Source: Rhizobium sp. 2MFCol3.1 (GTDB lineage Bacteria > Pseudomonadota > Alphaproteobacteria > Rhizobiales > Rhizobiaceae). Taken from it: a stretch of DNA of 64,000 nt. The notes beneath the pieces are model-generated. The model saw nothing but the letters and a program-made list of their open reading frames with translations, made no database searches and was not told the origin of the DNA. Position numbers and translations under genes: made by a program. Each line of letters begins with the position of its first letter. Within the stretch, counting starts at the first letter, position 1. The stretch lies in contig NZ_KB898355.1 in the NCBI RefSeq assembly GCF_000377565.1, positions 533,918 through 597,917 on the forward strand. Reading direction: 5' to 3'. This document shows positions 13,129 to 21,690 of this stretch, in pieces.

Positions 13129-13989
13129 TCAGAGCCCGTGCGTGCCGTCGTAGCCATTGACCTCGGGCGCGCTCCAGCCTTCCGGGTTGCGGGCCGGCTT
13201 GTAGATCTCGACCACCAGCGGATAGCAGGCAACCGCGTCCGAGGAATGCTCGGAGGAGCAATCGCCGCCGGGGCAGGCCGACATGCAGCCGAGGAGATCG
13301 ATCTCGGCGAAGAACTCAAGATAGTCGCCGGGGCGCACCGGGCTTGCCTTCATGAAATACTGGCCGGTATCGCGCGTGAAGCCGGTGCACATGAAGACGT
13401 TGAGCACATCGTGAATGTAGGTGCCGGCTTCCTGCAGCGACTTGCCGGTCTTCGCGGCGAAGGCGCGCGTCAGGTTGGAATGGCAGCAGTGATGATACTG
13501 GCCGCCATTGCTCAAGAGATTGTGCGTATAGGGATCGCAGCGCGTGCCGATGACGTCGTGTACCGAGCCGCCGAATTCGTCGAAGCGGTACCAGTCGAGC
13601 GTGTCGTGGGTGATCGTCGCGATCGGGCGCAGATAGGGCATGTTGGAGAAGAGCTGGTCGCCGAGACCGACATGCGTGCCGTTCAGCGCCCGGGTCTTGC
13701 CAGTGAAGAGGCGTTCCTCGAGGTTGTTGGCATTGAAGAGGTTCAAATCGCCCACCTGCGAGCCCTCGCTGGAGAGGATGCGGCAAAAATGGCCGGCCGG
13801 CACCGTCCAGCAGGCCGCTTCACGCGGCGGCACGACCACCCGCTCGACGAACTCAAGGTCGTCGCGCAAGGCGCGATATGCCGCGAGGTCCGGGCGCGGT
13901 AGCGTCTCGACGGGATAACAGATGACCGGCTTGATTGCCTTGCGGCTTGCTGCGTCTTCCGGTGAACTGGTAATCGGCTGGGGCTTCAT
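13129..13989 (-). CDS. DUF1989 / urea-carboxylase-associated family protein
   Basis: A 286-residue protein of the DUF1989 family, members of which are often encoded beside urea carboxylase and related amide-degrading genes. Characteristic stretches are WTVPAGHFCRI near residue 60, SQVGDLNLFNANN near 75-90, CDPYTHNLLSNGG near 150-165, HHCCHSNL, and CMSACPGGDCSS near 235. The many conserved Cys and His suggest a metal site, but the reaction is not established. It follows the GntR gene by 36 bases on the minus strand and so should be controlled by it. Its position near a biotin carboxylase/KipI-KipA/YcsF operon agrees with the family's usual context. AGGAG lies ten bases before the ATG. Confidence 0.85.
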   Translation of the reverse strand: MKPQPITSSPEDAASRKAIKPVICYPVETLPRPDLAAYRALRDDLEFVERVVVPPREAACWTVPAGHFCRILSSEGSQVGDLNLFNANNLEERLFTGKTRALNGTHVGLGDQLFSNMPYLRPIATITHDTLDWYRFDEFGGSVHDVIGTRCDPYTHNLLSNGGQYHHCCHSNLTRAFAAKTGKSLQEAGTYIHDVLNVFMCTGFTRDTGQYFMKASPVRPGDYLEFFAEIDLLGCMSACPGGDCSSEHSSDAVACYPLVVEIYKPARNPEGWSAPEVNGYDGTHGL

Positions 13990-14025
13990 CCCTCATTTTC
14001 TCCTGATATGCCGGGCGGACTGCCG

Positions 14026-19304: not shown

Positions 19305-20923
19305 GAAATCAGTGTCCTGTTCGGCTCGGTGCCGGCGATGATCTCGCGCGGCTCGAAGACGGAGATCGGATTGAAACGGATACAGGCGCCGATCGGGATC
19401 TGGCCGGCGAGGTCAAGATGGTGGCTGGCGACGACGCCGATGACCGGATAGCCGCCTGTCAGCGGATGATCGGCAAGGAAGAGCACGGGCTGGCCGCTAT
19501 GCGGCACCTGGATCGCGCCGAGTGCGGTGCCTTCCGAGGGCAGTTCCGCATTGTCGGAACGCTCGATCGCCACCTTGCCGTCAAGGCGCATGCCGACGCG
19601 GCTGGATTGAGGCGTCACGTCCCATTCCTGCGATGTCAGCGTCGCGACGCCCTGCTCGGTGAACCAGTCAGTACGCGGGCCGAGCACAATGTCGAGCGTC
19701 ACGACTTCGCCGGCGCGCGGCAGGCGCCGCTGCGCGGCGTGGGTCTGCAAAACAGCAAGTGATCGACGCTCGGCCGCAACCAGAATGTCGCCGGACGCGA
19801 TCGGCGCCGGGCCGACTTTGGCCAGCGTATCGGTCGCCGCCGAGCCGAGCACCGGCTGAACCTCGAACCCGCCGCGCAGGGCGAGGTAGCTCATCATGCC
19901 CTCGGGCGGAATGCCCAGCACCAGCTCGTCGCCGGCATCAAGGGCGATCGGGCTTGCGAAATTGGCGGTGCTCTCGCCACCAGCCGCCGCGCGGATCGTC
20001 AGCGGGCAGGGGGCGCCGGTTACCGCGACGGTGACCGGCCGATCGGCCGTGAACGCGAAGCCGCCGAAGAGCACTTCGATCACGGCGGCATCGCGCGGGT
20101 TTCCGAGGCAGCGATTGGCCTCGATCATCGCCATGCGGTCGAGCGCGCCGGATTCCGAGACGCCCTGGCTGGCAAGGCCCGGTCGGCCGAGATCCTGGAA
20201 CAGCGCGGGACGGTCCGCGCGGGTGACCAGCAATCCGGCTTGCTGTTCTGGAGCCTCATTGGCTGACGGCTTGGGTGAGGAGACCGGGACGACAGCGCCC
20301 TTGGCGATGTCGCGAAAGCGGACGCGGTCGCCGGGGGCCAGCAGCGCCGCCCGTTCCCGTGTCGTATCCCACATCGCGAGCGGCGTCTTGCCAAGCAGCT
20401 GCCAGCCGCCGGGGCTGTCTGATGGGTAGATACCGCCGAACTTGCCGGCGATGGCGACCGAGCCGGCGGGGATTTTTACTCGGGGGCTCTTGCGGCGAGG
20501 CACGTCGAAACGTGGATCGTCGCAGGTCATATAAGCGAAGCCAGGGGCAAAACCGGTGAAGGCGACGGTGTATGTCGCCTCGGTGTGGCGCTGGATGACC
20601 TCTTCGATCGTACAGCCGAGCATCTCGGCGACATCGCCAAGGTCTTCGCCATCGTAGGAGACCGGGATCTCGAAGAGTTCTCCGCCACGAGAGGAGCGTG
20701 TGGAAAGGTCGAGCGCGGCGATCTTGTCGTAAAGCCCCGCGGCGTTCGTCAGCCACGGATCGAAGCGCACCATGACGGTGCGCGCGCCTGGGATCACTTC
20801 GCGCACGCCTTCGAGCCCCGCCGCCAGGAGGGCGTCGAGCAGGGTCAGGGTGGCGGCGAGATCGTCGAGCTCGACGAGGAAACTGTCGCTGCCGGATGGC
20901 AGGAAACGCAGGCGCTCGCTCAT
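19301..20923 (-). CDS. pxpBC: KipI-KipA fusion: 5-oxoprolinase subunits B and C / biotin-dependent carboxyltransferase-like
   Basis: A 540-residue fusion. Residues about 1-205 are the KipI/PxpB domain (TGFAPGFAYMT, then PRRKSPRVKIPAGSVAIAG and the GGWQLLGKTP motif). Residues about 230-535 are the KipA/PxpC domain (FQDLGRPGLASQGVSESGALD, then the GGxxGFR-type end replaced by diverged sequence). In Bacillus and E. coli PxpB and PxpC work with PxpA to open 5-oxoproline with ATP; in urea carboxylase the same two domains form the carboxyltransferase. Here they overlap a biotin carboxylase gene by four bases on one side and ycsF by four on the other, so both roles are open. Translation is probably coupled (ATGA overlaps). 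Confidence 0.88.
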   Translation of the reverse strand: MSERLRFLPSGSDSFLVELDDLAATLTLLDALLAAGLEGVREVIPGARTVMVRFDPWLTNAAGLYDKIAALDLSTRSSRGGELFEIPVSYDGEDLGDVAEMLGCTIEEVIQRHTEATYTVAFTGFAPGFAYMTCDDPRFDVPRRKSPRVKIPAGSVAIAGKFGGIYPSDSPGGWQLLGKTPLAMWDTTRERAALLAPGDRVRFRDIAKGAVVPVSSPKPSANEAPEQQAGLLVTRADRPALFQDLGRPGLASQGVSESGALDRMAMIEANRCLGNPRDAAVIEVLFGGFAFTADRPVTVAVTGAPCPLTIRAAAGGESTANFASPIALDAGDELVLGIPPEGMMSYLALRGGFEVQPVLGSAATDTLAKVGPAPIASGDILVAAERRSLAVLQTHAAQRRLPRAGEVVTLDIVLGPRTDWFTEQGVATLTSQEWDVTPQSSRVGMRLDGKVAIERSDNAELPSEGTALGAIQVPHSGQPVLFLADHPLTGGYPVIGVVASHHLDLAGQIPIGACIRFNPISVFEPREIIAGTEPNRTLIS

Positions 20924-21690
20924 GACGACATATCGACGAAGGATTTGAGGTCTACGCCGCGTGCTTCCAGCGTCTGCCGCAGCGTGCGGGCGATCGCGAC
21001 GGCAGCCGGCGTGTCGCCGTGAATGCAGATCGACTGCGCGTCGAGCGCGATTTCGGTTCCGTCGATCGCCACAACGCGGCTTTCCGTGACCATGCGCAAC
21101 ATGCGCTCGGCGACGGCTTGCGGATCATGGATCACGGAACCGGCTAGGCGGCGGCTGACGAGGCTGCCGTCGACGTTATAGGCGCGGTCGGCGAAGGCTT
21201 CGCAGACGACGGTCAGCCCGGCCTCACGGGCTTGCTCTACGATCGGCGCGCCGGCCAGCGCCATCAGCACGAGGCTTGGATCGACGGCTTTGATACCTTC
21301 GATGACATCGGCGGCCTGGCGCGCGTCTTGGGCGATGGTGTTGTAGAGCGCGCCGTGCGGCTTCACGTAGCGCACCCTAGTTCCGGCCGCCTGCGCCAGA
21401 CCCTGCAAGGCGCCAATCTGGTAGATCGTGTCGCCGACCAGCTCAGCGCTCGACGGATCCATGTTGCGCCGACCAAAGCCGACCAGATCGCGGTAGCCGA
21501 TATGGGCGCCAACGGCGACACCGCGCCGCGTCGCTTCCTTGAGAACCGTCAAGATGCCGGCCGGGTCGCCGGCGTGAAAGCCGCAGGCGATATTGGCGCT
21601 GGTCACCGTCGCCAGCATGGCGGCGTCGTCGCCCATCGGCCATGGGCCGAAACCTTCGCCGAGATCGCTGTTCAGATCGACTGCTGCCAT
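20920..21690 (-). CDS. pxpA: LamB/YcsF family 5-oxoprolinase subunit A
   Basis: A 256-residue YcsF/PxpA protein, a TIM-barrel-like hydrolase subunit. The N-terminal pattern DLNSDLGEGFGPW and NIACGFHAGDP near residue 35, with GAHIGYRDLVGFGRR near 75-90, are diagnostic. It is the first gene of a three-gene operon with pxpBC and the biotin carboxylase. GGAGATGGAAC precedes the ATG. Two operator-like palindromes lie 38-70 bases upstream. Known members act on 5-oxoproline; the extra biotin carboxylase makes a related lactam or carboxylated intermediate possible. Confidence 0.92.
   Translation of the reverse strand: MAAVDLNSDLGEGFGPWPMGDDAAMLATVTSANIACGFHAGDPAGILTVLKEATRRGVAVGAHIGYRDLVGFGRRNMDPSSAELVGDTIYQIGALQGLAQAAGTRVRYVKPHGALYNTIAQDARQAADVIEGIKAVDPSLVLMALAGAPIVEQAREAGLTVVCEAFADRAYNVDGSLVSRRLAGSVIHDPQAVAERMLRMVTESRVVAIDGTEIALDAQSICIHGDTPAAVAIARTLRQTLEARGVDLKSFVDMSS

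Follow-up and report, generated by a model that had tools for sequence, protein, structure and literature searches.

A YcsF, KipI-KipA and biotin carboxylase operon in Rhizobium as a candidate biotin-dependent 5-oxoprolinase

We analysed a 64,000 nucleotide stretch of the Rhizobium sp. 2MFCol3.1 genome (contig NZ_KB898355.1, positions 533,918 to 597,917; the whole stretch is called the window), in which an operon encodes YcsF (PxpA), a fusion of KipI and KipA (PxpB and PxpC) and a biotin carboxylase (BC) that carries its own biotin carrier domain. Judged from sequence, the operon may well work as a biotin-dependent 5-oxoprolinase for 5-oxoproline or a near relative, a reading to which we give an even chance. 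The PxpABC 5-oxoprolinase is the known part of this system; the likely new part is a variant with its own BC-carrier chain in the operon. It is well supported by the loci compared here that YcsF, KipI-KipA and the BC-carrier form a conserved unit.

The three genes form a single minus-strand operon from 21690 to 17592, in the order ycsF, kipI-kipA, BC-carrier, with an ATGA overlap at both joints; coordinates, Pfam domains and joints agree with the operon and the four-base overlaps described in the initial annotation. The ycsF/pxpA gene (20920..21690) codes for 256 amino acids and a predicted ring-opening hydrolase subunit (LamB_YcsF, 3.7e-100). The kipI-kipA gene (19301..20923) codes for a predicted carboxyltransferase of 540 amino acids in one chain (CT_C_D, 4.2e-62; CT_A_B, 7.8e-81), and the third gene (17592..19304) for a chain of 570 amino acids with the domains Biotin_carb_N, CPSase_L_D2, Biotin_carb_C and, at the C-terminus, Biotin_lipoyl. 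In this chain both the BC motif NTRLQVEHPVTE and the biotin motif EAMKM are intact. The sequence hallmarks of a biotin-dependent carboxylase are present in the operon (BC domain with catalytic motif, biotinyl-lysine motif, carboxyltransferase domain), and homologues of PxpA, PxpB and PxpC are all encoded together in it. YcsF scores 373.8 bits on the PxpA subfamily model NF003814, above its cut-off of 226, and it has the residues that are conserved in at least 93% of every YcsF group, for example N7, D9, E12, H39, H63, D68, R74, H112, D168, H224 and D226. The KipA half exceeds the cut-off of the broader model TIGR00724 (238.1 versus 230.2 bits). The predicted structure of KipI-KipA has a mean pLDDT of 89.9, and its matches among solved structures are 3mml, 3ore/3oep, 5dud, 5i8i, 3va7 and 9yx5. 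Its closest relatives in named genomes are from Rhizobium and unclassified Rhizobiales (90-95% identity).

Co-occurrence of these genes, a check suggested by the initial annotation, was surveyed in three samples of loci (numbers beginning with L are labels of sampled comparison loci). Loci were sorted into type A (fused KipI-KipA and fused BC-carrier), type C (separate BC, KipI and KipA) and type B (no BC). A BC was counted as linked at a distance of at most 4.5 kb from KipA on its strand (samples a and c) or at most 6 kb from YcsF (sample b). For sample a, YcsF was searched in 151 genomes of the window's family and found in 68, and 82 loci of 102 places were used, the window included. They comprise 22 type A, 36 type C, 15 type B, one fused without BC and eight incomplete loci; L074 was reassigned by hand from type B to type C, since its BC sits in a very long frame. 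The YcsF search in the phylum (sample b) was positive in 38 of 130 genomes and gave 37 newly fetched loci, with four type A, five type C, 23 type B and five incomplete. Of the complete loci, 58 of 74 in the family (window included) and 9 of 32 in the phylum have a BC gene linked to pxpABC. Sample c was collected from named genomes with the window's own KipI-KipA chain as query and is thus biased to type A; YcsF stands beside KipI-KipA in all of its 65 loci, and 61 of them are type A and keep the complete set, the others being two fused without BC, one type B and one truncated at the end of its contig. A BC of the window's kind occurs with YcsF and KipI-KipA in Alphaproteobacteria, in Pseudomonas and on plasmids of Klebsiella and Arthrobacter; plasmid copies of the set include those of Klebsiella, Shinella and Paracoccus. 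A protein database search with the KipI-KipA chain found 6286 proteins at E ≤1e-50 among 7997 candidates scored, so the chain has numerous relatives.

Several single loci show further arrangements. In E. coli strain STS73-1-E a chromosomal GntR-NRAMP-YcsF-YcsI-KipIA-BC operon (L246:1-6716) adjoins IS1 and mobI and has several protein accessions in common with the Klebsiella plasmid. The latter encodes a second BC-carrier with a short N-terminus beside DUF1989 on the opposite strand (L094:2929-4320). Type-C operons on Rhizobium plasmids (L099:4559-9319 and L100:5447-9702) place pxpABC next to a separate BC gene and either one or two genes for the carrier, and relatives of the L100 class fall in the clade that contains urea carboxylase. 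In L123, a member of the type-A clade, and in L126, fused KipI-KipA stands with YcsF and YcsI but no BC is in the vicinity. On a Rhodococcus jostii RHA1 plasmid (L244:6060-14663), a 9 kb stretch holds kipI, kipA, GntR and pxpA along with a putative manganese transporter; the genes listed there include no BC.

The BC of the window is AccA3-like: it belongs with the alpha chains of acyl-CoA carboxylases and not with the urea carboxylase type. With its 445 amino acid BC domain as query, all 90 distinct type-A BCs (window and Arthrobacter included) scored between 637.9 and 971.0 bits. Among the 53 further BC rows compared (type C, urea carboxylases, carboxylases of this genome and of the family), the top score was 442.8 bits. 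The lowest identity of a type-A BC is 64.3% (Klebsiella) and the highest among the other rows 51.6%; the Arthrobacter BC, from a different phylum, lies within the type-A range. Mycobacterial AccA3 is also inside this range (667.6 bits) and is the closest solved chain to the window BC (1e-210). This genome's own AccC, which is not among the 53 rows, is 48% identical to the window chain, and its own urea carboxylase scores 348 blastp bits against the BC. EAMKM is found in 85 of 87 type-A BCs and the BC motif NTR-QVEH-(V/I)TE in 86 of 87.

AccA3 is also found together with KipI-KipA proteins in a solved complex. PDB entry 9yx5 is titled as the M. smegmatis long chain acyl-CoA carboxylase complex with MSMEG_0435-MSMEG_0436 bound and has AccA3 among its chains; this single entry contains the closest solved relatives of both the KipI-KipA chain and the BC chain. 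The window KipI is 40% identical to 9yx5_W and KipA 42% identical to 3mml_C of the same pair, and the KipA homologue has the same residues at the positions of P487 and G507. The BC of that complex differs in being AccA3, which is shared with acyl-CoA carboxylases, and the entry, known here from its title and aligned chains, is absent from the structure matches of YcsF. The earlier proposal that a biotin-dependent carboxylase is joined to YcsF is strengthened by the conserved unit and by this mycobacterial complex. We consider it quite probable that the four domains work together as a single enzyme.

Clues to the substrate come from the regulatory sites and the partner genes. A gene for a GntR/FCD regulator (21878..22546, plus strand; GntR 4e-17, FCD 1.1e-14), PxpR-like in position, diverges from ycsF. 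Between the two lies the perfect palindrome ATTGTTCAACAAT (21749..21761, plus strand), an operator without mismatch to ATTGTTNAACAAT, and a second operator-like site with two mismatches (21727..21739, plus strand). The window thus has a PxpR-type arrangement of divergent GntR gene and operator core: the 13 bases of ATTGTTCAACAAT also form the core of the site bound by PxpR in C. glutamicum, published as agattgttcaacaatct (PMC13274462). According to the same paper, PxpR binds 5-oxoproline with a KD of 726 nM, and growth of C. glutamicum on 5-oxoproline requires PxpABC and the NRAMP/YcsG-like PxpT (PMC13274462).

At up to two mismatches, ATTGTTNAACAAT has four sites in the 64 kb, every one upstream of genes belonging to this set; shuffled sequence never reached four (0 of 100 shuffles). 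This supports the putative regulon proposed earlier. The third site (15088..15100, plus strand, one mismatch) is upstream of a gene for a family 3 solute-binding protein (15130..15915, plus strand; SBP_bac_3, 7.5e-28), and a fused ABC permease-ATPase of the polar amino acid type is encoded at 15967..17508 (plus strand, 513 amino acids; BPD_transp_1 6.4e-20, ABC_tran 1.5e-34). The fourth (14754..14766, plus strand, two mismatches) is upstream of a minus-strand pair, a second GntR/FCD regulator (14026..14730; GntR 7.7e-15, FCD 2.9e-12) and a DUF1989 protein of 286 amino acids (13129..13989; DUF1989, 1.9e-47), a predicted metal-dependent hydrolase or deiminase whose closest solved chain is 3di4 (8e-132).

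The exact PxpR operator core was found in 37 of 90 type-A loci and in none of 44 type-C and 41 type-B loci; with up to one mismatch it is present in 62, none and one, respectively. Markov controls for the exact core gave 0 or 1 of 90 loci in 20 runs. Partner genes were counted in the same loci (types A, C and B) with queries drawn from type-A loci and with differing flanks, which inflates the contrast of type A to the others: a PxpT/YcsG-like NRAMP gene in 37, one and one, a YcsI gene in 38, one and two, a DUF1989 gene in 19, none and none, and a family-3 binding protein gene in 10, none and none. NRAMP and YcsI partners are commonest in Paracoccus and kin; the Klebsiella plasmid locus holds both the ABC-GntR-DUF1989 set and the NRAMP-YcsI set. 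A 5-oxoproline-like substrate is favoured because of the PxpR-type operator and because of the NRAMP (PxpT/YcsG) and YcsI partners in many relatives. Provided that there is one enzyme, its substrate is rather probably 5-oxoproline or something close to it. The initial annotation had proposed a lactam or amide; 5-oxoproline or a near relative appears more likely than an unrelated lactam.

The proposed reaction would start on the 570 amino acid chain, where the biotin of the C-terminal domain would be carboxylated with bicarbonate at the expense of ATP. The carrier domain would then swing to KipI-KipA, where the carboxyl group would be moved onto the amide (ring nitrogen or carbonyl oxygen) of 5-oxoproline or a near relative. 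Hydrolysis of the activated ring by PxpA would yield glutamate and set free CO2 or bicarbonate. The PxpR-like GntR repressor may sense the ring compound and control the operon; the ABC importer and the DUF1989 gene may be under its control by way of the same operator. As a guess, the substrate of DUF1989 may be an N-carboxylated by-product or a further imported compound.

In a KipI-KipA tree of 89 representatives, the window's clade contains 29 type-A loci, two fused without BC and an Austwickia locus. Urea carboxylase stands apart from this clade, in a group that also includes one type-C clade and a Rhodococcus locus. Other clades have pxpABC together with a BC and a carrier encoded by separate genes. 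The tree requires 10 changes of BC linkage, which therefore arose or was lost several times. We consider it a tentative idea, less probable than the 5-oxoprolinase reading itself, that opening by PxpA of a carboxybiotin-activated amide, in 5-oxoproline or a near relative, occurs in at least three KipI-KipA clades, served by AccA3 in mycobacteria, and that the whole KipI-KipA family descends from amide carboxylases, with BC-less PxpABC having lost biotin.

Two KipA positions stood out in the comparison with urea carboxylases. P487 is found in 90 of 90 type-A loci, 8 of 8 urea carboxylases, 1 of 41 type-B and 0 of 44 type-C loci, and G507 in 76 of 90, 8 of 8, 4 of 41 and 32 of 44, respectively. 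In an alignment read by eye, E. coli YbgK has Q and A at these positions; P and G are found in the proteins of M. smegmatis and K. lactis. The signature of P487 and G507 is kept as a clade marker only.

The genome holds two ycsF genes, three KipI-type places and seven matches to the BC chain (the window BC itself counted). One of the KipI-type places, the third, encodes a complete urea carboxylase (1180 amino acids, 1808.7 bits). A second pxpABC (L003:7011-9741) has separate kipI and kipA and a divergent pxpA and adjoins genes for a 2-hydroxyacid dehydrogenase and an M20 peptidase; no BC was found near it. The window operon is thus an addition to an ordinary BC-less pxpABC set.

Several points weigh against a biotin-dependent 5-oxoprolinase. 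Because of the second, BC-less pxpABC, 5-oxoproline would be served twice in this genome. The KipI half stays below the PxpB equivalog cut-off (135.5 bits on TIGR00370, cut-off 145.55) and the KipA half below that for PxpC (169.1 bits on NF045499, cut-off 500), and three loci (L029, L123 and L126) have a fused KipI-KipA without nearby BC. The window locus itself is without NRAMP and YcsI genes, and the partner contrast is inflated as described. Operators of FCD-type GntR regulators resemble one another; therefore the operator match is no proof of the effector. The residue signature shared by type A and urea carboxylase did not hold in an independent-pairs test, which takes phylogeny into account (median p 0.625 for G507, 1 for P487 and 0.625 for KipI YGQ), in which most pairings had too few differing pairs to reach 0.05. 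KipI Y166/G172/Q175 was rejected as a marker, being present also in B. subtilis KipI and in BC-less loci including Enterobacter L098. Likewise, a BC lineage reserved for this system was dropped; the initial comparison lacked AccA3, which scores inside the type-A range. This leaves our estimate for the 5-oxoprolinase reading unchanged, since KipI/KipA in 9yx5 are accompanied by exactly such a BC. Niehaus is said to have described in 2017 that known PxpABC works with three proteins and no biotin. In open-licence PubMed Central we found no paper that describes PxpABC or YcsF and a biotin carboxylase as parts of the same enzyme. The pxpTABC operon of C. glutamicum is without a BC (PMC13274462), and split KipA/KipI-like genes of unknown function are noted by Lombard and Moreira 2011 (PMC3199775).

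In the main rival reading, these proteins would still be a biotin-dependent carboxylase-hydrolase, but the imported substrate would be a different amide, lactam or cyclic amidine, with DUF1989 acting on the carboxylated or ring-opened product. We judge this rather unlikely, even though DUF1989 and family-3 binding protein genes are linked to type-A loci only, the DUF1989 gene comes after that for BC, with both on one strand, in Microvirga and in some Rhizobium, and the genome already has its BC-less pxpABC. Carboxyguanidine deiminase, of the same DUF1989 Pfam family, acts after guanidine carboxylase, a urea-carboxylase-type enzyme, and the cysteines of the window DUF1989 align with those of UAAP2. 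Of the earlier description of DUF1989 as urea-carboxylase-associated only the family membership stands, since the protein is far below the curated UAAP1/UAAP2 cut-offs (44.1 bits on TIGR03424, cut-off 284.7; 29.9 bits on TIGR03425, cut-off 205.95); its nearest solved chain is 3di4. The rival is further weakened by the PxpR core in the window operator and by the many relatives, foremost Paracoccus and kin, that have 5-oxoproline-type NRAMP and YcsI partners instead. We find it improbable that PxpA and KipI-KipA are an ordinary biotin-independent 5-oxoprolinase whose BC neighbour serves an acyl-CoA carboxyltransferase, such as that encoded at 23814-25409. PxpABC functions elsewhere without a BC in the operon, the window BC is of the acyl-CoA carboxylase alpha type, as near to AccA3 as to some type-A BCs, and this carboxyltransferase gene is 2 kb off; but it has a BC-carrier gene of its own (25292-27292), the same BC kind recurs beside YcsF and KipI-KipA in Alphaproteobacteria, Pseudomonas and the Klebsiella and Arthrobacter plasmids, and no acyl-CoA carboxyltransferase is annotated beside the BC in four type-A loci examined by annotation.

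A true split urea or guanidine carboxylase is very improbable; the initial annotation had spoken of a split urea-carboxylase-like enzyme. The operon has three domain types in common with urea carboxylase (BC, carrier and KipA/KipI-type carboxyltransferase), P487 is shared by all rows of both, and the two systems likely use the same carboxyl-transfer chemistry onto an amide-like nitrogen. We rejected this reading because KipI-KipA forms a separate clade and the BC is AccA3-like, far from the genome's own urea carboxylase. The window set also differs in its separate chains and in YcsF, adjoining KipI-KipA in every sample-c locus, in the place of allophanate hydrolase; none of the latter was seen among the 20 open reading frames scanned at 8-27 kb, the rest of the genome not having been searched for one. 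The single-chain architecture is not present: on the urea carboxylase model TIGR02712 (cut-off 1303.85) the BC chain scores 520.2 and KipI-KipA 143.7 bits. A full urea carboxylase is, moreover, encoded elsewhere in the genome.

A biotin-dependent 5-oxoprolinase would share with PxpABC of B. subtilis, E. coli and C. glutamicum the PxpA, PxpB and PxpC superfamilies, the divergent GntR regulator with the operator core of C. glutamicum PxpR and, in many relatives, the NRAMP and YcsI partners. It differs in the fusion of PxpB and PxpC, with scores below the curated cut-offs, and in the BC-carrier chain. ATP-dependent lactamases of the HyuA/CapAB/OplAH type belong to protein families different from those of the operon, and a Pfam scan of the operon proteins found no such domain. 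The predicted enzyme would resemble them in ATP-driven lactam ring opening, as described for these lactamases (PMC8453981).

Genes for an acyl-CoA dehydrogenase, a carboxyltransferase and a BC-carrier (22651-27292) adjoin and diverge from the YcsF operon; they probably serve leucine or branched-chain acyl-CoA breakdown. Beyond the DUF1989 gene lies a gene for a methyl-accepting chemotaxis protein (10329-12326).

We know of no settled mechanism for the use of ATP by PxpABC in 5-oxoproline opening. Two of its subunits look like a carboxyltransferase, and a version with its own BC makes carboxyl-activation of the ring directly testable. In a paper on Lactiplantibacillus pentosus, an extra BC/BCCP pair, read as lipid synthesis, and pxpB/pxpC are given as separate finds. 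Two annotated L. plantarum plasmids have such BC/BCCP and pxpB/pxpC genes side by side, which may or may not match the L. pentosus set. If the 5-oxoprolinase reading is true, it would add a new substrate class for biotin carboxylases and would explain the binding of KipI-KipA to the mycobacterial acyl-CoA carboxylase, and many genes labelled as acetyl-CoA carboxylase would belong to nitrogen salvage and not to fat synthesis.

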